Assembly: GCA_020851115.1 (NCBI GenBank)
Contig: JADZDJ010000182.1
Location: 1-39,316 of the forward strand
DNA length: 39,316 bases
Direction of reading: 5' to 3'
From: Pirellulales bacterium
GTDB taxonomy: Bacteria > Planctomycetota > Planctomycetia > Pirellulales > JADZDJ01
The stretch's first letter is position 1. Each line of letters starts with the position of its first letter. Shown here piece by piece: positions 10,648-27,204 of this stretch. The position numbers and the translations under genes are program-made. Under the pieces are notes generated by a model that saw only the letters and a list, made by a program, of their open reading frames with translations, made no database searches and had not been told where the DNA came from.

Positions 10648-11196
10648 ATGCAAGGCCGTAAACTGCTCATCGGTGTGACCGGCGGGGTTGCGGCCTACAA
10701 GACGGCGGCATTAGTCAGCAAGTTAGTCCAGAACGGCGCCGATGTGACGGTAGTACTTACCGACTCAGCACGCCAATTCATTGGTGCATCCACCTTTGAA
10801 GCCCTCACCGGTCGGCCAGTTCCACGCAACATGTTTTGCGAGGGAGATTTTCCACTCGGAGCACATATTGAACTGGCGCGACGCGCCGAAGTGTTGTGTA
10901 TCGCTCCGGCGACTGCCAACTTCTTGGCGAAGGCAGCCGTTGGACTAGCGGACGACCTGCTGAGCACGCTCTATTTGGCATTTGACGGCCCCGTTGTCAT
11001 GGCCCCGGCCATGAACTCGCAAATGTGGGCCAAGTCGCCGGTGGGAAGGAGTCTCGCCCAGTTGTTGGCCGACGGCGTGAAGATCGTTGATCCCGAGGAT
11101 GGCTGGTTGAGTTGTCGCGATCATGGGAAAGGGCGGATGGCGGACCCAGAGAAGATACGCGCGGCAATCGACGCTGCTTTGAAACAGACTCAGTAA
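10648..11196 (+). CDS. coaC: phosphopantothenoylcysteine decarboxylase (CoaC-type flavoprotein)
   Basis: FMN enzyme that decarboxylates 4'-phosphopantothenoylcysteine in coenzyme A synthesis. 182 residues covering only the flavoprotein domain: GVTGGVAAYKTAALVSKL at the N-terminus, the substrate-side APAMNSQMW motif (PAMNxxMW of PPC decarboxylases) and IAPATANFLAKAAVGLADDL. In most bacteria this domain is fused to CoaB; here the reading frame stops at 11196 and CoaB is a separate gene starting 10 nt later. The split looks natural rather than a frameshift, since both ends are clean. Confidence 0.93.
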   Translation: MQGRKLLIGVTGGVAAYKTAALVSKLVQNGADVTVVLTDSARQFIGASTFEALTGRPVPRNMFCEGDFPLGAHIELARRAEVLCIAPATANFLAKAAVGLADDLLSTLYLAFDGPVVMAPAMNSQMWAKSPVGRSLAQLLADGVKIVDPEDGWLSCRDHGKGRMADPEKIRAAIDAALKQTQ

Positions 11197-11206
11197 CGCA
11201 TACGCC

Positions 11207-11869
11207 GTGGCCCGCATTCTCATTACTTCCGGACCCACGCGACAGCATCTCGATCCGGTGCGGTATCTGACCAATGCCTCGAGCGGGCGGATGGGGCAAT
11301 CGCTGGCGCAAGCGGCGGTCGATGCCGGCCACGCGGTGATCGTCGTCAGTGGGCCGGTGGAAATTGACTATCCGCCGCGGTGTGAAGTCATTTCGGTGAT
11401 TTCGACGGAAGAGATGCTCGCGACTTGCGAGCGAGTTTTTTCCAATTGCGATGGTTTAATTGGTGTCGCAGCGCCGTGCGATTATCGTCCCGTGAAAGTT
11501 GAAGAGCACAAAATAAAGAAAACCGGAGAGCCGCTCGTGCTGCACCTGGTCGAGACTCCCGATATTGTGGCAACGTTGGCGGTCTCGAAGCGGCCGACTC
11601 AATGGGTCGTTGGTTTTGCGCTGGAGACCGAAGATCAGCGGTTCCGAGCGATTACGAAAATGGAGCAGAAAAGCTGCGACTTAATGGTACTCAACGGGCC
11701 GGAAGCAATCAGCTCGCAAGACAACTCAATCGAAGTCCTCGCGCGCAACGGCGAAGCGGTCGCGAAGATCGTCGGCTCAAAGGGCGATGTCTCTCGGCAG
11801 TTATTTGCCGTTATCGACGAGCGGCTGATTCGAGGTTCAAGCAAAATATCCGACACGCCGCTCGACTAG
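11207..11869 (+). CDS. coaB: phosphopantothenate-cysteine ligase (CoaB domain, stand-alone)
   Basis: Joins cysteine to 4'-phosphopantothenate using a nucleotide triphosphate, the step before CoaC. 220 residues corresponding to the C-terminal half of CoaBC: ILITSGPTRQHLDPVRYLTNASSGRMGQ (nucleotide-binding start), AAPCDYRPVKVEEHKIKK, and FALETED near the catalytic core. A GTG start at 11207 is used; no ATG gives the full N-terminus and no clear Shine-Dalgarno is visible, consistent with translational coupling to coaC 10 nt upstream. Confidence 0.9.
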   Translation: MARILITSGPTRQHLDPVRYLTNASSGRMGQSLAQAAVDAGHAVIVVSGPVEIDYPPRCEVISVISTEEMLATCERVFSNCDGLIGVAAPCDYRPVKVEEHKIKKTGEPLVLHLVETPDIVATLAVSKRPTQWVVGFALETEDQRFRAITKMEQKSCDLMVLNGPEAISSQDNSIEVLARNGEAVAKIVGSKGDVSRQLFAVIDERLIRGSSKISDTPLD

Positions 11870-12397: not shown

Positions 12398-14608
12398 GTG
12401 TCTTTGCCATCCGATTCCACCATTTCCGGTACGGCAGTGCGTGCTTCAGCGGATCCCGACACCGTGGGGAGCGCTTCGAGCCTGGGCGCTGCAACAACCG
12501 TAAAAGTGGGCTATGAAAAATTTAGGCCGTCGGCAACGCTCAAATCGCGCAGCTACGTCGGCTTGCTACTATCGCAGTTTCTGGCGGCGTTTAACGATCA
12601 GGCCAGCCATATCGTGGCGCTTTTTTATGCTACCGATATGCTGGTGCGGTTTGCCAAAGTCGCTCCGGACCACATCGATACGAAAGCGTTGATTTCGATC
12701 GTGACCGCGTGCTTTATCACGCCATTTTTTCTGTTCTCGCCGCTGGCGGGCGTTCTGGCCGACAAATACAGCAAGCGCTCGATCATTGTGTTTTGGAAGT
12801 TGGCCGAAGTCTTTATCATGACGATCGCGCTGGTCGGATTTTTGTTGCCACATGCCGCGGGATTGGGCTTCGCTTCGGCAGATACGCTGGCGATTTGGAG
12901 TTCGATTCTCGTCATTTCGGTCGTGTTTATGATGGGGACGCATAGCACATTTTTCATTCCGGCTAAATATGGAGTCATGCCCGAGCTATTGCATACATCG
13001 ATCCTCTCTCGCGGCAACGGCTTGCTCGAAGGGACTAGCTTCGCGGCGAATATTCTCGGCACCGTGTTTGGTGGCTGGCTGTATGGAACCGAGTTCATCA
13101 AGTCGAACATCGAAGTGTCGGGGGCTGCAACCGTGCTGCATCCGGGAAGAGAGTGGATCATCGGTACCGTGTTGCTCGGTTTTGCGGTGCTGGGAGTCAT
13201 CAGCTCGCTGCTGGTGGAGCACATTCCGCCGGCCGCGCCGCATAAGCCGATGATTTGGGAACCGTGGACTCCGATGAAGCAAAATCTCGGCCTGCTACGG
13301 AAATCGAAGTCGCTGGTACTGGCAACCATTGGGATTGCATTTTTCTTATTTATGACACTCTATTTGCGGCAGACGCTGTTGTTTCAAGGCGAAACCAAGG
13401 AAGAAGTCCAGCGCGCGATCAAATTGAATCCAGCGATCGCCGAAGAGGTCGGATTGGAGAAATCGGCGAACCCGGAGCAACTTGGCAAACACGCCAAAGA
13501 TGCGAAAACCGAATTCGAAGTGGCGCTGCTGATCGGCTTTGTCGGGCTAGGCGTCGGTATCGGATGCTCGCTCGCAGGTTATTTCTCTGGAAATCGGCTG
13601 GAGTTGGGGTTGGTGCCCATTGGACTGGCACTGTTGATCGTTTGCACTGCGACAATGGCTGTGGTCGTGCCCCACAAAGCGAGAATGATTGCCTGTTTGA
13701 TCGCGGTGGGCACCGCAGCCGGACTATATATCGTGCCGCTGTATACGCTGCTGCAACACCGCGCGCCGAAGGAGAGCAAAGGAAGCCTGGTGGCGACGAG
13801 CAATTTCTTGAACGTGACCGGCGGGCTGATTGCAGTGATCGTGTTCTTTTTGGCAACCGCCGGTTTGCAGTTCGTGCTCGATTTGAAGCTGCACTATGCC
13901 GATGCGCGGAGCGATCCGCTGAAGGTGACGGCCTATCTGCACCAATTGGTGCGCGAAAGCCAGATTCCAAAACTACTGTTTTTGGGCGCGAGCCTGGTGA
14001 CAATCGGCATGTTGCTGCTGCTTTGGTGGCAACGGCCCGACTTCATGTTGCGAGCGATTTCGTGGCTTCGCTCGTCGCGACGTCGACATTTACAAGCACT
14101 TGGGCTTGACAACATTCCGGCCAACGGCCAAGTGATCTTGGTAAGCAACTGCCGCGACTTTAATCATTGGGTATTGGTAGTATCGACCTTGGACCGCTTT
14201 GCGCGATTTGTGGCGCCGCACGATACGGGCGGCGACGATTTTTTGCGCAGTCTGGCTGTACGGAATGGGGTAATGATCGCCGCGGGTCCAAAGATTCGCC
14301 TGGCCGAAGAAGATCATGCGCTGGCACGTGGTTTGGTTACCCTGGGGCAAGGCAATATTCTCGGCCTTAGTCTTGAAGATGGCTATGTCGGCGACCACGG
14401 ACAGCAGTTTTCCGGCGAGCACTTGCTGGCTGAACTCCGCAACAAAGTTCCGGCCGGCATCTTGCCGGTTTACTGCGGCGAGAACCCGATTCATCCCGAA
14501 GCCGGTTGGAAATCCGACGGCCGCACGTTCGTCGCCATTGGCGAACCGCTGGCGGCCAACGCGCATGTCGAGGAAATTCGTGCAGCGATTGCCGCGCTCG
14601 GGAGTTGA
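12398..14608 (+). CDS. MFS transporter fused to a degenerate PlsC-type acyltransferase domain (LplT-Aas-like)
   Basis: The N-terminal ~540 residues form a 12-helix major facilitator like LplT, the lysophospholipid flippase (AFNDQASHIVALFYATD, SPLAGVLADKYSKRSIIVF). The last ~175 residues align with the PlsC domain that follows in Aas-type fusions (GQVILVSN..., ...PAGILPVYCGENP). The acyltransferase catalytic HX4D box reads NCRDFNH and the FPEG box reads SLEDG, so both key motifs are missing; the domain is unlikely to be an active acyltransferase. Start GTG at 12398 is tentative. Expected role: moving lysophospholipids across the inner membrane, with the C-terminal domain possibly a binding or regulatory remnant. 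Confidence 0.8.
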   Translation: MSLPSDSTISGTAVRASADPDTVGSASSLGAATTVKVGYEKFRPSATLKSRSYVGLLLSQFLAAFNDQASHIVALFYATDMLVRFAKVAPDHIDTKALISIVTACFITPFFLFSPLAGVLADKYSKRSIIVFWKLAEVFIMTIALVGFLLPHAAGLGFASADTLAIWSSILVISVVFMMGTHSTFFIPAKYGVMPELLHTSILSRGNGLLEGTSFAANILGTVFGGWLYGTEFIKSNIEVSGAATVLHPGREWIIGTVLLGFAVLGVISSLLVEHIPPAAPHKPMIWEPWTPMKQNLGLLRKSKSLVLATIGIAFFLFMTLYLRQTLLFQGETKEEVQRAIKLNPAIAEEVGLEKSANPEQLGKHAKDAKTEFEVALLIGFVGLGVGIGCSLAGYFSGNRLELGLVPIGLALLIVCTATMAVVVPHKARMIACLIAVGTAAGLYIVPLYTLLQHRAPKESKGSLVATSNFLNVTGGLIAVIVFFLATAGLQFVLDLKLHYADARSDPLKVTAYLHQLVRESQIPKLLFLGASLVTIGMLLLLWWQRPDFMLRAISWLRSSRRRHLQALGLDNIPANGQVILVSNCRDFNHWVLVVSTLDRFARFVAPHDTGGDDFLRSLAVRNGVMIAAGPKIRLAEEDHALARGLVTLGQGNILGLSLEDGYVGDHGQQFSGEHLLAELRNKVPAGILPVYCGENPIHPEAGWKSDGRTFVAIGEPLAANAHVEEIRAAIAALGS

Positions 14609-15451: not shown

Positions 15452-15850
15452 TTACGACTTCTTGCAGCCGCACTTGCCGCACTTGCAGACATCGCAAGAG
15501 CAACTCTCGCCGTTGCAATTGGGGCACTTGCAGTCTTCGCATCCGCAATCGGCAGCAGTGGCGGCAGCAGTCGCCGCTACGGCTGGCGCGATCAGAGTAT
15601 CACAGCACGACGCCTGCGGCTTCGAGCAGCAGGACGCCGCGGCGGTTGTCGTCGCCGCTTTGCAGCCGCAACTCCCGCACTCGCAATCGACACAAGAGCA
15701 TGTGCCATCGCAATTGGGGCAGGCACAATCGACGCAACCGCATTCGGCCTTAGCCAAATTGCTCGAAACGCGATTGCCGGCGAAGGCAAATGCGTACGTC
15801 AGCCCCATCGCCGCTACCAAGAGTAGGGCGATCACAGATAAACGCTTCAT
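15452..15850 (-). CDS. exported metallothionein-like Cys-rich protein with duplicated Cys module
   Basis: 132 residues with a clear signal peptide (MKRLSVIALLLVAAMG... to about AFA at residue 24). The mature part has 26 cysteines: two modules of 11, each following CGCxDCxCPNC...CSCxxCxCGxCGCK, joined by an Ala/Thr linker with two CC pairs. This pattern suggests dense binding of soft metals (Cu, Zn, Cd) or a disulfide-knotted secreted peptide. Shine-Dalgarno AAGGAG lies 7 nt before the ATG. It is 73 nt downstream of another exported Cys-rich gene and ends at a terminator. Exported metallothionein-like proteins are unusual because classical ones are cytosolic. Not assigned to a named family. 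Confidence 0.85.
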   Translation of the reverse strand: MKRLSVIALLLVAAMGLTYAFAFAGNRVSSNLAKAECGCVDCACPNCDGTCSCVDCECGSCGCKAATTTAAASCCSKPQASCCDTLIAPAVAATAAATAADCGCEDCKCPNCNGESCSCDVCKCGKCGCKKS

Positions 15851-15923
15851 GGAAAAACTCCTTAGAGAAAAAATGGTTGAGAACTCACCTGACGAACTGA
15901 TCTAAAAGCGCAGTTGAAGCGAG

Positions 15924-16376
15924 TCATTTCAACCAAATGCAATAGAGGGCCAGCAGCGGCGGGCCCGTGGGAGTTTTCGCCCGATCGATTAACAGACTAC
16001 ACTTGGCCTCGGCGACTCGATCGACAGTCGCTGCCAAGTGCGCCGTCAGCCCAAAAAAGTGATCTAGGGACGTTTGCGTGAGTTTATCGCGAACTAGCAC
16101 CTGCGGCGATAATTTCACACACGTACAATGAGTCGGTTGGGTTTCAGCGGATTGGGCCGCCTTCGCCTTACCGCAGCACAACCGATCGCACGATTGGCAG
16201 CCATTGGTCTCGGTTTTTTCAGCAACCGATTCCTTATTTTCAGTTGCCTGACAATCCGAACATTTGGAACGAACGCCATTGCTATAGCAGCAGCAAGGCA
16301 AAAGTGCCGCCGCCAGCGGGTTCACCGCTAGCGCAAACACTAAAAACGACAACGTAATTGCTCGAAAGAATTGCAT
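15924..16376 (-). CDS. exported Cys-rich protein, unknown function
   Basis: 150 residues with an N-terminal signal peptide (hydrophobic 6-24, AAA near 22-24). It has 13 cysteines, including a CCC triplet right after the signal, CSDC, CQSC, LCC and CTC; the second half is Cys-poor with a hydrophobic stretch (HFFGLTAHLAA). It is probably cotranscribed with the metallothionein-like gene 73 nt downstream. The CxxC pairs suggest metal or thiol chemistry in the periplasm, by analogy only. No strong Shine-Dalgarno precedes the ATG at 16376. Confidence 0.75.
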   Translation of the reverse strand: MQFFRAITLSFLVFALAVNPLAAALLPCCCYSNGVRSKCSDCQATENKESVAEKTETNGCQSCDRLCCGKAKAAQSAETQPTHCTCVKLSPQVLVRDKLTQTSLDHFFGLTAHLAATVDRVAEAKCSLLIDRAKTPTGPPLLALYCIWLK

Positions 16377-16751
16377 CGCAGTCGATCAGACCATCGTCAC
16401 GGTTCGACAAGTACACGGATTCGATGCACCGCGCAGTAGGGCGACCGATACATCGGCTCCATTGCAGCCTCCAAGCTTATGATGAGGGCTTGGAATCCTC
16501 AATCGATTATAGGGAAACCGGCGGGAATGGCAAGTCCGAGTTTACCGTAACCAGAAGTGGCAGAAGTGGCGTGTTAAGGCTAACCCAAGATAAAGAGTTT
16601 GGGTTCGATTTTCAGAATTTTGAGACTCGAATCGAACACAAGTCCAATGGTGCTGGGGCGTGAAACGTCGAAAGGCGAAATAGTGAAGACCTACTTCGTT
16701 GACTTCTCTCCAAGCCGTGGCTTGCTGAACTGCTGGACGTGACCTCGAATC

Positions 16752-17742: not shown

Positions 17743-18735
17743 CTATCGCGCTCCCATGACGGGGAACATTTCGCGAACCATCGTGATTGCCGCAGGGCCA
17801 ACGAGTACGACGAAAATGCCTGGAAAGATGAAGATCACCAGCGGAAAGATAAGCTTAACCGCGGTTTTTGCCGCCTTTTCCTCCGCCAATTGACGTCTTC
17901 GCGTTCGCATCGCGTCGCTTTGCACGCGTAACGCTTGCGCAACACTGGAGCCGAATTTGTCGGCTTGAATCAGAATCGCGGCCAGGCTACGGAGGTCGTC
18001 GACGCCGGTGCGCTCGCCCAGGTCGTGCAACACTTCGGTGCGGGCCTTACCCATTTGCAAATGGAAATTGCACAAACTGAATTCTTCGGAAATTACGCGC
18101 GCGGTGCGCTTCATTTCTTCGGCGACTTTCCGCATCGCCTGATCGAGCCCCAGTCCGGCCTCGACGCACACCACGAGCAGATCGAGTGCATCGGGCAGAC
18201 CGAGAAATATCTGCTGCTTGCGACCGCGTCCCATGAACCAAACAACCAGATCGGGCAAATAGAACAAAAAAGCCGCGATGCACACTGTGTACATCAGTGC
18301 ATTTTTACCCGCGCCGTAGGCGATCAGCGTGCCTCCGCCACCCAAAAACAAGCCGGCAATCAGGCCGGCGAACTTGAGGCCGAGGAACATCGTCGCAGCA
18401 CCGTCGCCACGAAATCCGGCCTGCGACAATTTTCGGCGGAGCTTGCTGGTTTCGCCTTCACTTTTCGGCTGTAACGGTTTCGACAGCACGGGAGACGCCT
18501 TTTCCAACACCTTGGACATCGTGTCTCCTTTTTTTCCTTTGCCTGCCACGACGTCTCGGCGGCGTGCGAGCGGATTTTTCAGTTCATCGAGTCGTTCGTG
18601 TACTCGGGTCGGCCGCCCGGCGACGACTTCCAACATCCAGAACGCCGCGACGGCAAACAGCCCGAAGACAGCGAACGGAACCAATTTTTCCCAGCTAATC
18701 AGGGCGGCAGCGACGATGATGGATGCGTTATTCAT
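17743..18735 (-). CDS. tadC: Tad pilus platform protein TadC (type II secretion F domain)
   Basis: Inner-membrane platform protein of the type IVc (Flp) pilus machine, working with TadB. 330 residues from ATG 18735: an N-terminal helix (about 12-35), a basic cytosolic region, paired helices at about 110-165, then the T2SF domain with LPDALDLLVVCVEAGLGLDQA and ILIQADKFGSSVAQALRVQSD, ending with a hydrophobic segment (IFPLVIFIFPGIFVVLVGP). A longer frame from a TTG at 18777 is less likely. It follows tadB by 126 nt. Confidence 0.93.
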   Translation of the reverse strand: MNNASIIVAAALISWEKLVPFAVFGLFAVAAFWMLEVVAGRPTRVHERLDELKNPLARRRDVVAGKGKKGDTMSKVLEKASPVLSKPLQPKSEGETSKLRRKLSQAGFRGDGAATMFLGLKFAGLIAGLFLGGGGTLIAYGAGKNALMYTVCIAAFLFYLPDLVVWFMGRGRKQQIFLGLPDALDLLVVCVEAGLGLDQAMRKVAEEMKRTARVISEEFSLCNFHLQMGKARTEVLHDLGERTGVDDLRSLAAILIQADKFGSSVAQALRVQSDAMRTRRRQLAEEKAAKTAVKLIFPLVIFIFPGIFVVLVGPAAITMVREMFPVMGAR

Positions 18736-18861
18736 AGCAGTCGGTCGCGCACATCGATTGTGCGTCAGCACTGACAATCAATTTGGATCGTGATTGCCAA
18801 GATTGAAACAAATGACTGGAAAGACCATTCCTTTCACGCATCGAGTCGCGCGACCCATGCG

Positions 18862-19827
18862 TTACACTTTGATATTCACAATTTTTCTGATTACCAATGC
18901 ACCTAAAATCTGCATCACCACGCCGCCGGCGAGCATTTTCTTGCCGATCGGATCGGTGAATAGCACGGCAACATAATCGGGGTTCAAGTACCACACGGCA
19001 ATGAACAGCAGCGGCGGTAGCGCCAGCAGCACGATACCCGACAGCCGGCCTTCACCCGTGAGGGCTTGCACTTGGCCCCAAATCTGAAACCGTTCGCGAA
19101 TCAGGTGGCCGATTTTGTCGAGAATCTCGGCCAAATCGCCACCGGTCTGCTTCTGCAAGATCACCGCGGTGGCAAAGAATCGCAAGTCGAGATTTGGAAC
19201 CCGCTCCGTCAGGCTTTGCAGGGCGTCGTTCATGGCGATGCCGAGGTTTTGTTCCTCGTGTACACGGTTGAATTCCACGTTGATCGGTTCCGACATTTCC
19301 TCGGCGACCAGGTGAAAACCAGCCGACAAGCTGTGTCCCGCTCGCAAGGCGCGGGCCATCAACTCCAAAGCGTCGGGGAGTTGTTTGGCGAAATTCCGCA
19401 GTCGCTTGCGACGCCGCAAAATGAGCCACAACATCGGTAAGATGCCGGTGAGGATCGCGAACGCCGGAACGATCGCCGCATTGACGCGCGTCGCCGCTCC
19501 GGCGACGGCGCCGGCCGCAGCCATGCACGCGGTAATGATCAAGAATTTCGGCGGCGTGAGATTGGTATCGGCCTGCTCGAACAGCAAGCTCAAATTGCGG
19601 AACTTCGCCAGAAACTCCGCGATGGCGCCTTGAGTCGAGTCGAGCGGTTGCGCCAAAACGCCGCTCTCGACAATACTTGCCTTGGCACCGCTCGCTTTGC
19701 CGGCCGCGATAAATGCCAGCCGTTCCTCCGCGCGCGAGCTTTCGCTGCCGCGAAACATCATCGCCACGGCGCCGACCAGTGCGGCAACGCCGAAAAAGGC
19801 GGCAAGGGAAATTAATAGTGGAGACAT
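18862..19827 (-). CDS. tadB: Tad pilus platform protein TadB (type II secretion F domain)
   Basis: Inner-membrane platform partner of TadC. 321 residues from ATG 19827 (MSPLLISLAAFFGVAALVGAV, an N-terminal membrane helix). Paired helices at about 95-140 precede the T2SF signature FAKQLPDALELMARALRAG and LQKQTGGDLAEILDKIGHLI. The frame is open further upstream but those residues are not helix-like and are excluded. The gap to tadA (103 nt) carries a GGTCGGTG-type repeat. Confidence 0.94.
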   Translation of the reverse strand: MSPLLISLAAFFGVAALVGAVAMMFRGSESSRAEERLAFIAAGKASGAKASIVESGVLAQPLDSTQGAIAEFLAKFRNLSLLFEQADTNLTPPKFLIITACMAAAGAVAGAATRVNAAIVPAFAILTGILPMLWLILRRRKRLRNFAKQLPDALELMARALRAGHSLSAGFHLVAEEMSEPINVEFNRVHEEQNLGIAMNDALQSLTERVPNLDLRFFATAVILQKQTGGDLAEILDKIGHLIRERFQIWGQVQALTGEGRLSGIVLLALPPLLFIAVWYLNPDYVAVLFTDPIGKKMLAGGVVMQILGALVIRKIVNIKV

Positions 19828-19842
19828 GGGTAAGCAGCGACT

Positions 19843-19930
19843 CGACGATCGGTGGTTGAATGTTCTTTGCCAGCGGTCGGTGGTCGTCGGATTCGCAACA
19901 GACGGCTGACCACAGACCACGGACGATCGA
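19843..19930. repeat. imperfect palindromic intergenic repeat between tadA and tadB
   Basis: The left side (cgatcggtggtt...ggtcggtggtcgtc) and right side (gaccacagaccacggacgat) are imperfect inverted copies. A related string is at 3254-3290. It would form a hairpin in the tad transcript; a role in processing or graded expression is possible but not shown. Confidence 0.45.
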
Positions 19931-21262
19931 TCAATCTTGCAGCATAGTGCGTTGGCGGAACGCGCTGGCGGGCAGTCGCACTCCGGCTTGTTCCAAGTGA
20001 TCCATAAACGTGGGGCGAATTCCAGTGGCTTCAAATCGGCCCACTGCGCGGCCGGTTTCGTCGATGCCGTCTTGGCAGTAGTGGTAGATGTCCTGCATCA
20101 CCACCGTGTCCTGCTCCATGCCGACGATTTCGGTGATATGCGTAATTTTGCGCACGCCGCCTTGCAGTCGATTGGCCTGAATAATGAGATCGACCGAGCT
20201 GGCGATTTGCTGGCGCATCGCTTTCAAGGGCAGTTCGAAGCCGGCCATTGTAATCATGGTCTCGATGCGCGCGATGGCGTCGCGCGGCGCGTTGGCGTGC
20301 AGCGTGGTCATCGAGCCTTCGTGGCCCGTGTTCATGGCTTGCAGCATGTCGAGCGTTTCTGCGCCGCGGCACTCGCCGATAATGACTCGTTCGGGCCGCA
20401 TGCGCAGGGCGTTTTTCACCAGGTCGGTGGCCGTGATCGCGCCTTTGCCTTCGATGTTCGGTGGCCGCGTTTCAAGCCGTACGACGTGCTCCTGTTGAAG
20501 CTGCAATTCCGCCGCGTCTTCGATGGTCACGATGCGCTCGTGATTGGGGATGAAGCTCGACAGCGTGTTGAGCAGCGTCGTTTTTCCAGAGCCGGTACCT
20601 CCGGAAATGATGATGTTCAAGCGGGCTTTAATTGAGCCTTCGAGCAGCATCACCATTTCCGGGGTGAACGCTTTGTAGTTGAGCAGGTCTTCCAGCTTCA
20701 GCGGGTTGGCGCCGAAGCGGCGAATGGAAACCGCCGGGCCGTCGAGCGCGAGCGGCGGGATGATGGCATTCACGCGGCTGCCATCCGGCAGGCGGGCGTC
20801 GACCATCGGGCAGACTTCGTCGACTCGGCGACCAACTTTCGAGACGATGCGATCGATGATTTGCAGTAGGTGCGAATTGTCGCGGAATTGCACCGTGGTT
20901 CGCTCAAGCTTGCCGCGGCGCTCGACGTAAATGCTTTTCGGGCCGTTGATCAAAATATCGCTGATCGTCGCATCTTTCAGCAGCAATTCCAGCGGGCCCA
21001 GGCCGAAGGTTTCGTCCAACACCTCCTCGACAAGCCGATCGCGCTCGGTGCGATTGAGCAAATGGTCTTCGGTGTCGCAGAGATGCTCTACGACGAGCCG
21101 GATTTCGCGGCGCAGCACATCTCCTTCTAATTCGCTGACTTTCGACAGATCGAGCTTGTCCACGAGCTTGGTGTGAATACGCCGTTTGAGCGATTCAAAT
21201 TCGCCGGTGGAAGTTTTATCGCCGGAGCGAGCGGGCAGCGGAGGCGGCTTGAGCGTGGCCAT
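19931..21262 (-). CDS. tadA: Tad pilus assembly ATPase TadA/CpaF
   Basis: Cytoplasmic hexameric secretion ATPase that powers Flp pilus extension and retraction. 443 residues from ATG 21262 (a TTG two codons upstream is also possible). Motifs: N-terminal CpaF domain, [15 protein letters not shown], Walker [16 protein letters not shown], Asp-box region [11 protein letters not shown], Walker B with [16 protein letters not shown] and the His-box [13 protein letters not shown]. All catalytic motifs are intact. Confidence 0.97.
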
Positions 21263-21310
21263 GGGCAACGTGGCGGAGTGGCTAGTGAATTGGCGGCTAG
21301 TAACTAAATC

Positions 21311-21332
21311 GACTGGTCGCGTGCGACCAGTC
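21311..21332 (-). repeat. perfect 10-bp palindrome in the cpaE-tadA gap
   Basis: gactggtcgc and gcgaccagtc are separated by two bases, giving a 10-bp perfect stem. It sits in the largest spacer of the tad cluster (297 bp), about 50 nt before tadA. There is no T-tract, so it is not a classical terminator. Confidence 0.6.
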
Positions 21333-21559
21333 TTATCCTAGGCAACCATAGCTTACCGTTGGCCACATGCATGTTGCGAAAAGGCAACGCGAGAGCCTTC
21401 CAGCGGGATTCCGGCGGAACGGAATTGGAATTGATAAATCAGATCAAGCCGCAGAGCGGTTGGAAATCCGTGAGCAGCAGTAAAGTTCGATCCAATCGGT
21501 TCACGATTGCGTGGCGTCCTGCTGCGTTACGCCTGAGGCGCAAGCCCCTCTACTCGGGC

Positions 21560-22777
21560 TCATTTCTTTCCGCTGAACATCGTCCGCCACCGCGACTTGG
21601 AGAGTCTTGCGCTCAGCGAGCTTTCGTCGGCCGATTTTTCCGCGCCGCCGACCGTAAAGAAGTCGGCCATTTCGACAATCGACTGCGTGATCGCCGCCTT
21701 GGGCGCTTGCTCGATCAGCGGCACGCCGTTGTTGCGGACTTCCGACATCGTGCGATAGTCGTTGGGCAACTGCCGAAAGATTTCGCAGCCGATCGTCTCT
21801 TGCGCCCGTTTGAGGCTGATTTGCGAGCCATCCAGTCCGACTCGATTGACGACGACTTTGACTTTGTCCTTCATGCCAGCGATTTCGCCGAACGACACCA
21901 TCAACCGCACTACGTTGCGCAAACACGGCAGGTCGAGTTGCGTCACCATCAGCACATGCATCGCCAATTCGAGGGCGGCCATATCGATGGCGCTGTATGC
22001 CTTCGACAAGTCGAGAATCAAGTGCGTGAAGGTGGCCTTCAACAAACCGATCACCCGCTGCATATCGTCGGCGTTTACCAGCGCGGCGTCTTCGAGCTGC
22101 ACGGGACGCGGTAGCAGAAACAAACCCGACGAGTGTTTGGTCAACGATCGTTTGAGCAACGTGAAATCGAGGCGCGTTACGTTTTGCGCGACATCGATCA
22201 AGGTGTAGTCGGGAATCGTGTCCAGAAACACGTCGGCGTCGCCGAGGCTCAGATCGAGATCGACCAGGCAGACCGAATTTTGTTCGTTGGACGCCAGCGC
22301 GCAACCCAGGTTTACCGCGAGGCTCGTTGCGCCAACGCCGCCGGTGGCGCCGCAAACCGCGATAACTTGGCAGCCGCGCGATTTTCCGTCTCCTTTGCCG
22401 AATTGCCGTTCGCTGAGACGTTCTAGTGCGCCGACGAGATCTTCGATGCGAACAGGCTTTGGCAGGAATTCCTTGGCGCCGGCACGCATCGCGCGCAGAA
22501 TCAGAGTGCCATCGGTCGAACCACTAATCACCAAAATGCTGCACTGCGGTGCGGTGGCGGCAAGCTGTTCGACGAGTTGCAGGGCTTTGTCGGAGTCGGC
22601 GTCCAGCGCCACAATGCCAATATCGGGGTGGGTTTGAGCGACGACGTCCGAGAAGAATTCGTAGCGCGAACATTCCGCTTCGAGCCAGACCATGTCCAGG
22701 CCGAGCAGCATCGTTTTCAGCGATTCGCGAGCGCCATCGCTGGGATCAACAATGGCCAGTCGGAGCACGTTGGTCAT
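21560..22777 (-). CDS. cpaE: CpaE/TadZ-type pilus localisation ATPase with receiver domain
   Basis: 405 residues: an N-terminal response-regulator receiver fold (about 5-125; Asp59 at the phospho-acceptor position in VALD, conserved Lys107 in LPKPV) followed by a MinD/ParA-like ATPase domain. The P-loop region 143-152 is GATGGVGATS: the signature and catalytic lysines of the deviant Walker A are replaced, as is common in the TadZ/CpaE group, while VCLVDLDLSLGD keeps the Walker A-prime and B character. In characterised systems the protein places the Tad machine at the pole or a membrane site. It lies between the secretin gene and tadA. Confidence 0.93.
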   Translation of the reverse strand: MTNVLRLAIVDPSDGARESLKTMLLGLDMVWLEAECSRYEFFSDVVAQTHPDIGIVALDADSDKALQLVEQLAATAPQCSILVISGSTDGTLILRAMRAGAKEFLPKPVRIEDLVGALERLSERQFGKGDGKSRGCQVIAVCGATGGVGATSLAVNLGCALASNEQNSVCLVDLDLSLGDADVFLDTIPDYTLIDVAQNVTRLDFTLLKRSLTKHSSGLFLLPRPVQLEDAALVNADDMQRVIGLLKATFTHLILDLSKAYSAIDMAALELAMHVLMVTQLDLPCLRNVVRLMVSFGEIAGMKDKVKVVVNRVGLDGSQISLKRAQETIGCEIFRQLPNDYRTMSEVRNNGVPLIEQAPKAAITQSIVEMADFFTVGGAEKSADESSLSARLSKSRWRTMFSGKK

Positions 22778-22789
22778 GGGGGTGCAAAG

Positions 22790-22866
22790 TTCAGGGTGGT
22801 GGGATCAGGGTTCAGCGTGCAAGGCGGGCGCTGTGTCCAATTTCTGAACTCCAAACCCTGAACCCC
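22790..22866. repeat. ttcaggg-type inverted repeat between cpaC and cpaE
   Basis: Imperfect inverted arms built from ttcaggg/ccctgaa (22790-22815 and 22844-22866) fill almost the entire 101-bp gap. It is non-coding and could fold into a long hairpin in the tad transcript. Confidence 0.5.
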
Positions 22867-22878
22867 AATGATGCCCCT

Positions 22879-24747
22879 CTAGTTCTTTACGTCATAACCC
22901 ACCGGCCCGATGAAGCCAGGAGCCGCCGATACTGGTTTCATCTCCCCAGCGGCGGCCGGATTTTGTGGAAGAGTCGGATGGTAGCGATCATTCGCGTTGG
23001 TAGTCGTAGGTGAATTGTTGCCGGTCGTCGGACTGGGTCGCATCGATGTCGCTGGAGTCTTCTTGGGGGGGCGAATCGACATCGGCCCTCGGCTGGCGTT
23101 CGGCGCTGAGGGGCCTTGCGTGCCTGGCGGAATCACTTCGTAGCCCGGCGATGGAGGTGCCTGGACCGCCGGTGAACCGTCGGAGTAGCACGCGGCAGGA
23201 TCCACGGCCGGAGTGGGGCAGCATCCCTTCGGGCCACACGGCCCTTTGGACGGCACTTCGATGTACCCCTTCCAGACCATTTCGCAATCGTTCGGCACGT
23301 CGGTGTGCATGCCTGGCAAGCACTTGGGCACTTCACAAGGATCAAGCCCCGCAGCAAGTTCGGGCGTGACGAGAATTACCAACTCGATCTCTTCTTCCCG
23401 CTGTCGAACGGTTCGGAACGGAGCACCGACATACGGCAGTTCGCTGAGCCACGGGATGCCGCGCACACGACCTTCAATTCGAGTTTGCACCAGGCCCGCG
23501 AGTGCGAGCGTCTGCCCAGGTTTCATTTCGACGCCAGTATCCACCTGGCGAACTCGCAAGCCCGGCACCGTGGTGCCATTGATTGTAAGCGCGCGCGTTT
23601 CATCGATTTCACTGACGCGCGGGCGCACTTCCAAGCGAATATTCCCATTGCCCATCACGATCGGCACAAAATCGAGTTGCGTGCCGAATTCCTTGTATTG
23701 AATCGAGACCGTACCTAAGCTCTGTGGTACGAGAATCGGAAACTCGCCGCCGACGATGAATGAGGCGGCGCGCCCGCTGACGGTGGTCACCGTCGGATCC
23801 GACAGGATTTTCAAAATTTCTTCCTGTCGCAGCGCTTCCAGGAACCCAAAAAAGGAGTTGTTGCCATCAACAACGCCGAATCGCACCGTATCGCCAGCGC
23901 CCGCTGGCACGGCTCCGCTTCGCACGCTTGCCGCGCTAATCAAGCCGCTGATGCTGGAGACGACAAAACTGCCGTTGTCGGCGATATTGGCAAAGTCGAA
24001 GCCGACTTCTCGCAATTTATTTCGATCGACTTCGGCCACTTTGCAGTGCAATAGCACTTGCTGCACGCTGGCGACTTCGACGGTCGATTGAACATCTGGA
24101 TAATAGTTCTTGGCAATGTTGATAATGGTGGTGACCTGATCGTCGCGATCGATGTACCCCGTCAAAAGAACGCCGGTTCCGATCGGATGTACCTGGATGT
24201 TCGCATTGGGAAAGAGCGAGCGGATCGTTTCGGAAAGCTCGCGCGCGTCGGCCGACACGATGCAATCGATCGTAAAGAGCTGGCCTTTGTCGTTCCACAG
24301 ATTGATCTGTGTGACTCCAGGTTTCTTGGCGAACACCTGAATTTCGCGCGGCGACAATGGGGTAAGTTCTAAAATTTCCTTGTTGTTCACCTGGGCGCGC
24401 GGAATGTTTTGATCGAGCGTCAGCACTCGGCTCGAATTGGCGATGATGTCCATCCGCTCGTTGGCCGCGCGAACGTGATGAATCGCGGATTCAGCCAGTT
24501 GGGGATCGATCGCCGGCCCGGCGGACTGAACTGCGCTCGGCGCACTCATCGACCCTGGCGTTTGGATCGGACCGGGCGCCTGCATGGGGCCTGGAGTTTG
24601 AAATTCATTGAGGCTCTGATCGGTGCTAGGCGATTGCGGCGGCAGACTGATTTCTTGTCCGCGAGCGATGCCTGACAGACCAATGGCGAAAATTAGTGGA
24701 GCGCAAAAGCGCAAATAGGGCAGCCGCCCGATACGGTGCGAGAACAT
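22879..24747 (-). CDS. cpaC: Tad outer-membrane secretin CpaC/RcpA
   Basis: Forms the outer-membrane channel for the Flp pilus. 622 residues from ATG 24747, preceded by a G-rich ribosome-binding site. Order: signal peptide (to about residue 30, ARGQ), a proline-rich repeated stretch (TPGPMQAPGPIQTPG), pilus-secretin N-domain (about 98-165), BON-like domain (about 168-235) and the secretin domain (about 310-463, with RVRGIPWLSELPYVGAPF, the family signature). After residue 470 there is a roughly 150-residue Cys/Pro-rich extension with seven cysteines (GPCGPKGCCPTP) not found in Caulobacter CpaC. Longer upstream frame rejected because it would bury the signal peptide. Confidence 0.95.
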   Translation of the reverse strand: MFSHRIGRLPYLRFCAPLIFAIGLSGIARGQEISLPPQSPSTDQSLNEFQTPGPMQAPGPIQTPGSMSAPSAVQSAGPAIDPQLAESAIHHVRAANERMDIIANSSRVLTLDQNIPRAQVNNKEILELTPLSPREIQVFAKKPGVTQINLWNDKGQLFTIDCIVSADARELSETIRSLFPNANIQVHPIGTGVLLTGYIDRDDQVTTIINIAKNYYPDVQSTVEVASVQQVLLHCKVAEVDRNKLREVGFDFANIADNGSFVVSSISGLISAASVRSGAVPAGAGDTVRFGVVDGNNSFFGFLEALRQEEILKILSDPTVTTVSGRAASFIVGGEFPILVPQSLGTVSIQYKEFGTQLDFVPIVMGNGNIRLEVRPRVSEIDETRALTINGTTVPGLRVRQVDTGVEMKPGQTLALAGLVQTRIEGRVRGIPWLSELPYVGAPFRTVRQREEEIELVILVTPELAAGLDPCEVPKCLPGMHTDVPNDCEMVWKGYIEVPSKGPCGPKGCCPTPAVDPAACYSDGSPAVQAPPSPGYEVIPPGTQGPSAPNASRGPMSIRPPKKTPATSMRPSPTTGNNSPTTTNANDRYHPTLPQNPAAAGEMKPVSAAPGFIGPVGYDVKN

Positions 24748-24895
24748 CCTTGTCCCCCTGTAGATCGATCCGATCCGAACGAAAAGTATTGGTTTGAAGC
24801 TTACAAAACGATGAGATTTGCGTGACACCAACCCGCTGCGCGAGCAAGCTTCCATCGCTGCTTGCCATCTCGTGCGCGCTAGGGCTGGCGAATGC

Positions 24896-25945
24896 TCAAT
24901 TGGTTACGCCGGTTGCGCCAGTCGTTGGATCATCCGGCGTCGGCGCGCCGACCGTAGGATCGGCAGCCCCTTGAAAGCTGCCGCCGCCGGTCGTCTCAGT
25001 CTGCCAACGGCCGTCCTTTCCCTTTTTCGTAAATTCGACGCGACTGACTTCTTCGCCTTTCAACAATTCCATCCAAAAATGCTGTTCTTCCTCCGGCGAC
25101 GGTTCCGCGGCCGCGATCTTTGGCTCAGCAGCCGGCGGCTGTTTGTTGGCTTTGAGAAAATTGAGGATTCCTCCCCCTGCGCCTGAATTGGTTTGTTTGT
25201 TTTCTCCCCATTCCTTGGCTCTGTCGCCATTGCCGTCGCCGCCAAACAGATCTTTGGCATCTTTGCCGCCAGTCTGCGCGATCTTGTCATCATCGGGATG
25301 GCGCAAAACCAAGCGGATTCGTCCCATTTCGGCGGCGAGCGTCACCAATTCGACTTGATCTGGAGTCACCAGTAGCGACACCGTCCGCGCGGCGATGGCT
25401 TCGGCGTCTTTCGATTCGTCCGTTCTCCAGTGTTCGTTAACGGCAAACACGCGGACGTCTTGCAGTACGGTCTTGGCCAGCGGCTGGTCAATTCCCGCCT
25501 GCACGTTGCGAGTGACATACACGATGACGTCTACGCGATCGCCTGGCTGCAACAGGTGGCCGGTCGAACTCACTGCGTCGGCCGGAACCGCTACCACGCG
25601 ATAGCCCGGCGGAATTTCATTCATTCGTGTGTCGTTGGCAAACTTTCCCTTGCGAATCGGCTCGCCTTGCAAAATTGTGCTGCCAGCATGTTGATTTTCC
25701 AGTTCTTTCAGTTCCCGCACTGCGTCGGCCGGAACCCTGTCCTTCGGCCAATCTTCGAGGACGAGGTTTTGCGGATTGAGCGGCTCGTTGACGCGAATGT
25801 CCTTTTTAGCGACATAGATTTTCTCCATCTCCGCCGGTGGCGTTTGAGCCTGATTGCGGTGCTCCATCACCTGGCTAATACCGATCGAAGCGACTAGGCC
25901 GCAACCTAGCGCCAACAGCAGCAATAGCAGGGACTTAGGACGCAT
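24896..25945 (-). CDS. cpaB: Tad pilus periplasmic protein CpaB/RcpC
   Basis: 349 residues; an N-terminal membrane anchor (LLLLLLALGCGLVASIGISQV) is followed by a SAF-type domain (about 43-105: VYVAKKDIRVNEPL-like IYVAKKDIRVNEP, then GEPIRKGKF) and the RcpC domain with GYRVVAVPADAVSSTGHLLQPGDRVDVIVYV. Works with the secretin in the outer-membrane subcomplex. The last ~110 residues are low-complexity (Gly/Ala/Pro/Glu) and end in a Thr/Gly-rich tail. No strong Shine-Dalgarno precedes ATG 25945. Confidence 0.94.
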   Translation of the reverse strand: MRPKSLLLLLLALGCGLVASIGISQVMEHRNQAQTPPAEMEKIYVAKKDIRVNEPLNPQNLVLEDWPKDRVPADAVRELKELENQHAGSTILQGEPIRKGKFANDTRMNEIPPGYRVVAVPADAVSSTGHLLQPGDRVDVIVYVTRNVQAGIDQPLAKTVLQDVRVFAVNEHWRTDESKDAEAIAARTVSLLVTPDQVELVTLAAEMGRIRLVLRHPDDDKIAQTGGKDAKDLFGGDGNGDRAKEWGENKQTNSGAGGGILNFLKANKQPPAAEPKIAAAEPSPEEEQHFWMELLKGEEVSRVEFTKKGKDGRWQTETTGGGSFQGAADPTVGAPTPDDPTTGATGVTN

Positions 25946-26035
25946 AGTGTGTTAGGAGTGTCTGGTGTGTCTGGTATCTTTTGACTGGTGGACGGTTTTG
26001 AAACTGAGAACCACACGTCAGCCTATCTGGCCGAT

Positions 26036-26623
26036 TTATTGAACCGCTTCTCTCCGCATCACGCTTGTTGCTGACATCGTCTTGCCCCCGAGGAACAACG
26101 GCGACGGCAGCCAACTGACTTGATTAAAAGGCACCGAGACCGTAACCGTCACCGGCGCGCCATAACCGGCATTGCTGGGCGGGCTAGGACTCACGGTCGT
26201 CGTCGCCCCCGAAATCTTGGCGCTCGTTAAATAGTCACCGACTTTGGTTTGCACATCACTCGCGGTCGCCCCGTCGAGCACGGCCACGCGTGCGCCCTCG
26301 CGGGACGCATTCGTGATTACTTGTTGAACCATCACCATCCGGCCGTATTCGATCATGCCGAACACCAGCAGAAAGAAGACCGGCGCAACGACCGCGAACT
26401 CGACGACAGCGGCCCCCCGTCGGTTTCTTCGGCACGATCGGCAGAAATTCTCCACCTTGAGATTTACTCGACTCGGATTTAACTGGCCGGCCGGTTGGGT
26501 GTTGGCTGGAAATCTCGCTCCAGAATTGGTCGCCGCAGGCGATTGTCGGCGAAGGGATTCGTCTCCTGCCGATTTTCTTGAGGAATGCCTTAAGTTACGT
26601 GCTATCAAAGAATTGCGATTCAT
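26036..26623 (-). CDS. tadE: TadE-like pseudopilin
   Basis: Minor pilin-like protein of the Tad system. The start at 26623 is supported by an ATGA overlap with the tadV stop (26622-26620) and a GGCGGGGA ribosome-binding site. 195 residues: an unusually long basic N-terminal region (about 70 residues), then the TadE motif RRGAAVVEFAVVAPVFFLLV with Glu at the +5-type position and YGRMVMVQQVITNASREGAR. Only this one TadE/TadF/TadG-type protein is in the window. The long pre-helix segment is atypical, so a shorter product from an internal start is possible. Confidence 0.9.
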   Translation of the reverse strand: MNRNSLIARNLRHSSRKSAGDESLRRQSPAATNSGARFPANTQPAGQLNPSRVNLKVENFCRSCRRNRRGAAVVEFAVVAPVFFLLVFGMIEYGRMVMVQQVITNASREGARVAVLDGATASDVQTKVGDYLTSAKISGATTTVSPSPPSNAGYGAPVTVTVSVPFNQVSWLPSPLFLGGKTMSATSVMRREAVQ

Positions 26624-27204
26624 ATCAACATCCCCGCCCAAATAAAGTAAGCGATCGAGCCAATGGCAATGGGAATTCCATACGGCAAGAGCAGCATGGA
26701 GCTTTTTCGCTTGGCAGCAATCGTTGCTAGCTCAGTCGGATTGCCAATCGTAACCATCTCATTGACGATCGTAAGGAACTGGTCCTTGTGTTTTCTCCAA
26801 CTCCGCCGAAACAGCACCATCGTCAGTGCTAGCACTCCGCCAACCAGTGCTGAAACGAAAAACGCGTAGAACGTCGTTACCACGCCCTCCATCAAGTAGG
26901 CGGCAGCGAGCCACGATCCCACTCCTGCTAATAGCTTCACATCGCCTGCACCCATTCCGCCAATGGCGTAGGCCGGCAGCAACAAGGCGAGTCCCACGGC
27001 GGTTCCCAGCAGGCTCAATCCCAAGCCTTCCCATCCATGGGCATACGCACCAAGCGCCCAACCGCTGAGGATCATGGGGAACGTCAGCCAGTTGGGAACT
27101 TTTAGCTTGTATCCATCGATCACCGCGGCCACGACCAGGGTAATGGCCACCAGCCACACGGGGGCATGCTGTTGGAAGGCGGTCAAAATACGTTCGACGA
27201 ACAT
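26620..27204 (-). CDS. tadV: Flp prepilin peptidase TadV/CpaA
   Basis: Inner-membrane aspartyl protease that removes the leader of Flp and TadE-like pilins. 194 residues, about six membrane helices, and no N-methylase domain, as usual for the CpaA type. Both catalytic aspartates are present: Asp30 in VIDGYKLKVPNW and Asp88 in GMGAGDVK. AGGAG lies 5 nt before the ATG. Its stop overlaps the tadE start by four bases (ATGA), indicating translational coupling. Confidence 0.95.
   Translation of the reverse strand: MFVERILTAFQQHAPVWLVAITLVVAAVIDGYKLKVPNWLTFPMILSGWALGAYAHGWEGLGLSLLGTAVGLALLLPAYAIGGMGAGDVKLLAGVGSWLAAAYLMEGVVTTFYAFFVSALVGGVLALTMVLFRRSWRKHKDQFLTIVNEMVTIGNPTELATIAAKRKSSMLLLPYGIPIAIGSIAYFIWAGMLI

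Follow-up and report, generated by a model that had tools for sequence, protein, structure and literature searches.

Metallothioneins are small proteins that are rich in Cys residues and CxC motifs, contain few or no aromatic residues, and hold several metal ions in thiolate clusters. To our knowledge, the known bacterial metallothioneins are few and cytosolic; a study of the Pseudomonas metallothionein PmtA reportedly uses the term extracellular metallothionein. Csp1 is an exported Cys-rich copper store. In the figure legend of a review, bacterial metallothioneins are drawn as cytosolic (PMC7558416). CutF of Rhodobacter capsulatus (cutFOG) is described as an exported sensor that acts while nascent; it carries a Cu-binding motif and, at its C-terminus, a stalling-like motif, and it opens a stem-loop that covers the next gene's ribosome-binding site. 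It is reported to act in cis and not to be detectable as a stable protein (PMC9973294). In the CruR system of Bordetella, copper is reported to act in the opposite way to CutF, through a RAPP motif, and a few CruR homologs are stated to occur in Planctomycetes (PMC9426467). In this study, a two-gene cassette of a planctomycete was compared with these systems.

The window, the whole stretch of DNA analysed (39,316 nt), is one whole contig of a 5.2-Mb assembly, and its nearest named relatives are planctomycete MAGs. Two Cys-rich ORFs are located at the coordinates of the original prediction, 15452-15850 and 15924-16376, both on the minus strand. The companion ORF (16376-15924) lies 5' of the metallothionein (MT)-like ORF (15850-15452). 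Since a convergent Maf-like ORF (by reading) follows 3' of the MT-like ORF and the next same-strand ORF upstream of the companion ends 527 nt away, the locus looks like a two-gene unit. No intrinsic terminator was found on the minus strand of the gap. A candidate sigma-70 promoter, TTGCCA-16-TATAAT (11/12), at 16506-16533 of the minus strand is weak evidence at chance level (one found vs 0.8 expected). The Rfam search gave a single line (E 0.78, 14 bits vs a cutoff of 108), and no copper gene was recognized by reading among the window's own ORFs. Elsewhere in the window, reading of the ORFs revealed a Tad/Flp pilus-type cluster at 17743-27204 of the minus strand (TadC/TadB-, CpaF-, CpaE-, secretin-, CpaB-, and prepilin-peptidase-like ORFs), the flavoprotein decarboxylase half and the synthetase half of CoaBC as two separate adjacent ORFs at 10648-11869 of the plus strand, and a 736-aa MFS-type transporter fused to a C-terminal acyltransferase-like part at 12398-14608 of the plus strand.

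The MT-like protein (15452-15850, minus strand) has a signal-peptide-like N-terminus by hydropathy and charge (KR, a hydrophobic core, and AFA; 15779-15850) and is probably cleaved near residue 24. It contains Cys module 1 (residues 37-63, 15662-15742, 11 Cys), a linker with two CC pairs (residues 74-83, 15602-15631, 4 Cys at 74/75/82/83), and Cys module 2 (residues 102-129, 15464-15547, 11 Cys). The two module copies are CGCVDCACPNCDGTCSCVDCECGSCGC and CGCEDCKCPNCNGESCSCDVCKCGKCGC. The original prediction, 26 Cys in a 132-residue signal-bearing protein with two 11-Cys copies, was confirmed, and the four linker Cys complete the count. The protein has no His, and its two Met and three aromatic residues are all within the signal-like region. 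In composition it is metallothionein-like: small, Cys-rich, CxC-rich, and with few or no aromatics. In the six frames of the window, at least 16 Cys occur in 31 of 14,380 open 100-residue stretches, with up to 26.

The MT-like protein of the window matched no Pfam family at E<=10, and the NCBIfam search gave only two lines, far below cutoff. Among the 17 MT-like members described below, no metallothionein family of Pfam or NCBIfam (SmtA-type) was found; the only Pfam line over cutoff was DUF326, for the Csp-like part of one member (L013). The sequence search with the module profile found no solved structure. As far as the Pfam and NCBIfam searches go, neither window protein matches a described family; the MT-like protein resembles metallothioneins in composition and falls outside their described families.

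The adjoining second Cys-rich ORF was also confirmed. This companion (15924-16376, minus strand) lies 73 nt upstream of the MT-like ORF and encodes 150 aa with 13 Cys, a CCC motif, and a signal-like N-terminus by reading; it is the proposed metal-sensing leader. The N-termini of the companions are hydrophobic by reading, and the number of Cys per companion ranges from 8 to 18. AlphaFold2 with a 9-row alignment gave no folded core for the companion (mean pLDDT 44.7) and placed a helix at residues 2-18. The identity of the other companions to that of the window is only 16-29%; the Cys clusters are conserved, with C68 and C84 invariant in 17. Outside the Cys residues, the best conserved part is the extreme C-terminus, with Trp at -3 in 17/17, Leu at -7 in 14, Cys at -5 in 12, and Asn at -1 in 11, giving the consensus L-x-x-x-W-[LR]-[NK]. 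The C-terminus of the window's companion, PPLLALYCIWLK, is encoded together with the stop codon at 15924-15962 of the minus strand. PP is present in the last 15 residues of 4/17 companions, that of the window included, and the RAPP motif in none of the 17. DUF2946 (PF11162) matched 0/17 companions at E<=10, and the companions matched no Pfam family of weight and no solved structure. PF11162 matches other proteins in 4/57 related genomes, with RAPP-like ends by reading.

With the MT-like protein as the query, a match was found in 5/57 relatives, its own genome included. A five-row MT profile matched 12/396 genomes of the order (one judged spurious) and 5/392 of the phylum, the draws overlapping, and a scan of named genomes gave 10 loci, eight of them planctomycete. 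The family is patchy, being absent from the two other genomes of the window's own family, and tblastn of the MT-like protein against a plasmid collection revealed no plasmid copies. A short Cys-bearing companion is located directly upstream on the same strand in 17/17 distinct planctomycete loci, which are not fully independent (four from one genus, g17; three from another, g14; two from Schlesneria MAGs). The duplicates L009/L040, L011/L038, and L015/L039 were counted once. Excluded from the 17 were L017 (a short match with no ORF seen), L028 (E 9.8e-4, not an MT-like ORF), and L018 (from Ignavibacteria, where the module is fused to YHS domains and the protein upstream is unrelated). L104 and L106 encode the same proteins as L010 and L013, and L107 and L108 are further module-plus-companion loci outside the 17. 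The gap between companion and MT-like gene is 56-90 nt in 15/17 and 157 and 187 nt in the other two; gaps of 60-76 nt also follow eight additional companions that precede Cys-rich proteins.

The MT-like proteins of the 17 loci carry one, two, or three canonical module copies with the pattern CxCxxCxCPxCxGxxCxCxxCxCxxCxC, which L016 and L034 fit only partly. The original prediction had named the lack of a conserved Cys pattern as a finding that would speak against it, and the opposite was observed: the aligned Cys are fully kept in five of seven pairwise comparisons (13/13, 22/22, 22/22, 24/24, and 25/25) and number 24/25 in the other two, vs 43-82% for the non-Cys mature residues of the same seven pairs (gaps uncounted). 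This conservation is the strongest evidence against a chance origin of the Cys-rich ORF, and a chance ORF is ruled out by the Cys conservation together with the recurrent two-gene order.

The profile of the 17 companions matched 27/396 genomes of the order and 31/297 of the class, in overlapping draws whose weakest matches are not companion-like; the weak ones in L060, L061, L064, and L066 lack the W-x-x ending, and L062/L095 was left out of the tests. Where the CxCPxC module is lacking, the gene after the companion encodes a CusB-type adaptor, a YHS protein, or a Cys-rich protein of another Cys pattern (e.g., L052, L053, L055-L058, L063, L065, and L111-L113). The constant element is therefore the companion, not the module. 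In L090 and L098, the companion is followed by an HMBD-bearing CusB-type adaptor and then by an AcrB-type pump, and in L054 by a YHS protein; YHS-like proteins were also recognized by reading in L109 and L110. Tandem companions occur in L088 (and L054), one before a YHS protein and the second 69 nt before a 26-Cys, CC-rich protein of a different pattern. The protein behind the companion in L096 and L063 (970-1425, minus strand) is built of CCxxGxxCC-type repeats, with 24 Cys among its 126 residues, and does not resemble the MT module.

Copper-type genes recur next to the MT-like genes. A Csp-like protein is encoded directly 3' in L014 and L036, in both with a twin-arginine-type start by reading. 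That of L014 has its best PDB sequence matches in 3lmf (E 7e-14), RkCSP3 (E 1e-11), and Csp1 5fjd (E 8e-9); it matched TIGR04401 at E 8e-14, with 52 bits vs a cutoff of 100, and no Pfam family. That of L036 is just over the DUF326 cutoff. In L013 (2062-2928, plus strand), a single 288-aa protein with 51 Cys combines three MT-like modules and a DUF326/Csp-like region in one fusion, which offers a convenient link of the MT module to copper storage. In L040, the gene directly 3' encodes a Cu P-type ATPase that has YHS and HMBD domains (TIGR01511, 568 bits vs a cutoff of 397), and the ignavibacterial MAG locus L018 has a module-like stretch fused to YHS domains. These neighbours (Csp-like, Cu-ATPase, and YHS) support, by association, a probable metal role of the MT-like protein.

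The two Schlesneria MAGs speak against a specificity for copper, since in them an ars-type operon is divergent from the cassette (L010, 3937-5283, minus strand; L012, 3316-5516, minus strand). ArsR, DUF6428, and LMWPc were identified by scanning in L010 and MIP in L012, where neighbours were also assigned by reading. Thiolate clusters bind many soft metals. The same leader-sponge architecture may thus serve As(III), Zn, Cd, or Hg, a proposal that overlaps the copper reading in everything except the metal. We regard it as possible yet doubtful, because the neighbours and fusions in L013, L014, L036, and L040, and the genes behind the related companions in L090 and L098, are of the copper type. 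It is improbable, in turn, that the MT-like protein is an exported disulfide-rich peptide, either an envelope component or bacteriocin-like, that binds no metal. It does look exported, Cys-rich, and short, and a sub-threshold Pfam line to the putative bacteriocin family YxzE (E 0.07) was obtained for 1/17 members; against such a peptide stand the CxC-dense repeats, the presence of one to three module copies with an odd number of Cys (11) in each, the fusions to Csp-like and YHS domains, and the copper neighbours.

At the junction of the two genes, a predicted RNA hairpin starts in the companion stop codon (15882-15925, minus strand), and the Shine-Dalgarno sequence AAGGAG of the MT-like gene is located at 15858-15863. 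When at least 60 nt of the companion ORF were folded, the predicted anti-Shine-Dalgarno was gaaaactcc at 15970-15978, inside the ORF; with only 30 nt, a second candidate appeared at 15946-15949. With 60 nt folded, the predicted main partner of the Shine-Dalgarno sequence lies in the companion codons in 14/15 short-gap loci; it is 20-31 nt before the companion end in 12/15, and for the window and L016 this distance is approximately 50 nt. In folds of the gap, a hairpin began at base 1, 2, or 3 of the companion stop codon in 14/15 short-gap loci. The corresponding position statistic, picked after the folds were seen, was 0.50-0.98 in these 15 loci vs 0.35 for shuffles (17 loci) and a mean of 0.32 for 102 control gene pairs. 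A universal stop-codon hairpin was rejected, since it fails in L036, L034, and most of 14 held-out rows (mean 0.40 vs control 0.32), one of which (L018) is an unrelated ORF.

Recoding of the last nine companion codons with the peptide fixed weakened the folding with the gap in 17/17 loci (mean z -2.39; Fisher p 4e-8 with one locus per genus, 11 loci). For 103 control gene pairs, recoded slightly differently (70 nt after the stop, 60 recodings, and codon usage of the upstream gene only), the mean z was -0.18, and the Mann-Whitney comparison with the cassette, one per genus, gave p 2e-5. As 9.7% of the control pairs had p<=0.05, the Fisher values are optimistic. Permutation of the companion's synonymous codons with codon composition preserved gave Fisher p 2e-6 (30 nt) and 3e-5 (60 nt); the counts for the window were 13/150 at 30 nt and 0/150 (z -3.77) at 60 nt. 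Individual loci differed: p was >0.05 in 6/17 by recoding (the window with 39/300, L010, L012, L016, L036, and narrowly L034), and in 7/17 and 8/17 by permutation at 30 and 60 nt, respectively. Thirteen held-out companions were grouped by gap length after the gaps were seen; for the three whose gaps were 60-76 nt, k was 0, 0, and 1 of 100, and the ten with longer gaps were mixed (z 0.91 to -2.55). Five later short-gap loci (L107, L108, L111, L112, and L113) kept gaps of 64-69 nt and U-richness and were weak (z -1.31, -1.40, -0.83, -1.34, and 0.05; Fisher p 0.066); L010, another weak locus, is of the same genus as L107 and L108. Across four g17 genomes, two base pairs were changed on both sides and still paired. 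Peptide-independent selection for RNA pairing at the junction is therefore supported for the first 17 loci as a set, not for each locus, and the RNA lock, supported for the set, is strong in some lineages and unproved in others.

Given the CutF/CruR layout, a leader-controlled exported sponge was adopted as the reading of the cassette. We consider the chances about even that it is a bicistronic metal-responsive unit in which an exported, probably Cu(I)-binding sponge is gated by a metal-sensing leader. The second gene would provide the exported MT-like protein, whose clustered module thiols would act outside the cytoplasm as chelators of a soft metal, with Cu(I) as the likeliest one. The first gene would encode a secreted, largely unfolded Cys-rich leader, similar in action to CutF, CruR, and CopL. 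In the resting mRNA, the last codons of the leader would pair both with the intergenic RNA and with the MT ribosome-binding site. During export, metal would load the Cys residues of the nascent leader, ribosomes would slow near its C-terminal L-x-x-x-W-[LR]-[NK] end, the RNA would open, and the sponge would be translated. Derepression by metal, as in CutF, is proposed since the product would be protective. The weakest step is the site of the ribosome pause. When positions -18..+14 were blocked as by a stalled ribosome, the mean predicted pairing of the Shine-Dalgarno sequence decreased only from 0.88 to 0.77 (15 loci), so that its release by a ribosome parked exactly at the stop codon is weakly supported; a pause several codons earlier or simple ribosome passage fits better.

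The RNA data are explained just as well by plain translational coupling that involves no metal sensing. The two genes may encode structural partners, both periplasmic metal binders (e.g., a chaperone handing metal to the sponge), or be plainly coupled; they would be co-transcribed, with the RNA pairing serving as ordinary coupling and no sensing of metal by the leader. Simple coupling agrees with all RNA evidence, which in several loci is weak, and the 8-18 Cys and conserved C-terminus of the companion could bind a partner. Such an arrangement appears rather unlikely to us. CusB-type/AcrB-type genes and genes for YHS proteins or differently patterned Cys-rich proteins also follow companions, which argues that the companion is not partnered to one protein; AlphaFold2 gave it no folded core, with only nine rows in the alignment; and similar Cys-bearing exported leaders are regulators in the reports on CutF and CruR (PMC9973294; PMC9426467). 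Of the original prediction, the signal-bearing duplicated metallothionein-like module with its conserved Cys pattern was retained, whereas the pair of Cys-rich proteins is better described as a putative leader and its effector. This view is based on the conserved C-terminus of the companion, the CusB/CusA-type or YHS genes that it heads without the module, and the folding of its last codons against the gap and the MT ribosome-binding site in many loci. Extending the leader-sponge reading beyond the window, we tentatively suggest that planctomycetes may possess an undescribed family of metal-sensing nascent-chain leaders that end in L-x-x-x-W-[LR]-[NK]-stop, use their own last codons as an RNA lock on the next gene, and control not only exported, differently patterned MT-like copper sponges but also copper genes of the CusBA, YHS, and Csp-like types.

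Compared with SmtA/BmtA and MymT, the MT-like protein of the window is likewise small, Cys-dense, and CxC-rich, and its mature part lacks aromatics and His; it differs from them in its signal-like N-terminus, its modular 11-Cys repeats, and the lack of a Pfam match. In contrast to Csp1, the MT-like module is no four-helix Csp; in three loci, the module has a Csp-like protein next to it or is fused to one. Among the matches listed from the open-licence literature, there was no description of an exported bacterial metallothionein family in planctomycetes and no report of CutF-like leaders paired with metallothioneins. A modular exported metallothionein family would mean metal sequestration by a thiolate protein in an oxidising compartment.

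With CutF and CruR, with which CopL is grouped, the cassette shares a short, exported-looking, Cys-bearing first gene with a conserved extreme C-terminus, a short gap between the genes, a second-gene Shine-Dalgarno sequence that is predicted to be masked by RNA pairing, and a metal-handling gene downstream. CutF and CruR end in RAPP or are proline-rich at the end, whereas the companions end in L-x-x-x-W-[LR]-[NK], contain several Cys clusters, and lack a DUF2946 match in all 17 loci. The downstream gene is MT-like here, and the word metallothionein has 0 occurrences in the main text of PMC9973294; some companions may already figure among the CutF-like proteins listed with that article. The companions have the same layout and fall outside DUF2946 by profile; they would work like CutF/CruR without necessarily being members, and they resemble leaders of the CutF/CruR type more than a second sponge. 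Should the proposed mechanism hold, nascent-chain metal sensing would extend beyond DUF2946 with a new C-terminal motif, and the cassette would be a compact two-gene test system. Its signature (Trp at -3, Cys clusters, and a 60-76-nt U-rich gap) is a handle for other uncharacterised planctomycete metal genes.
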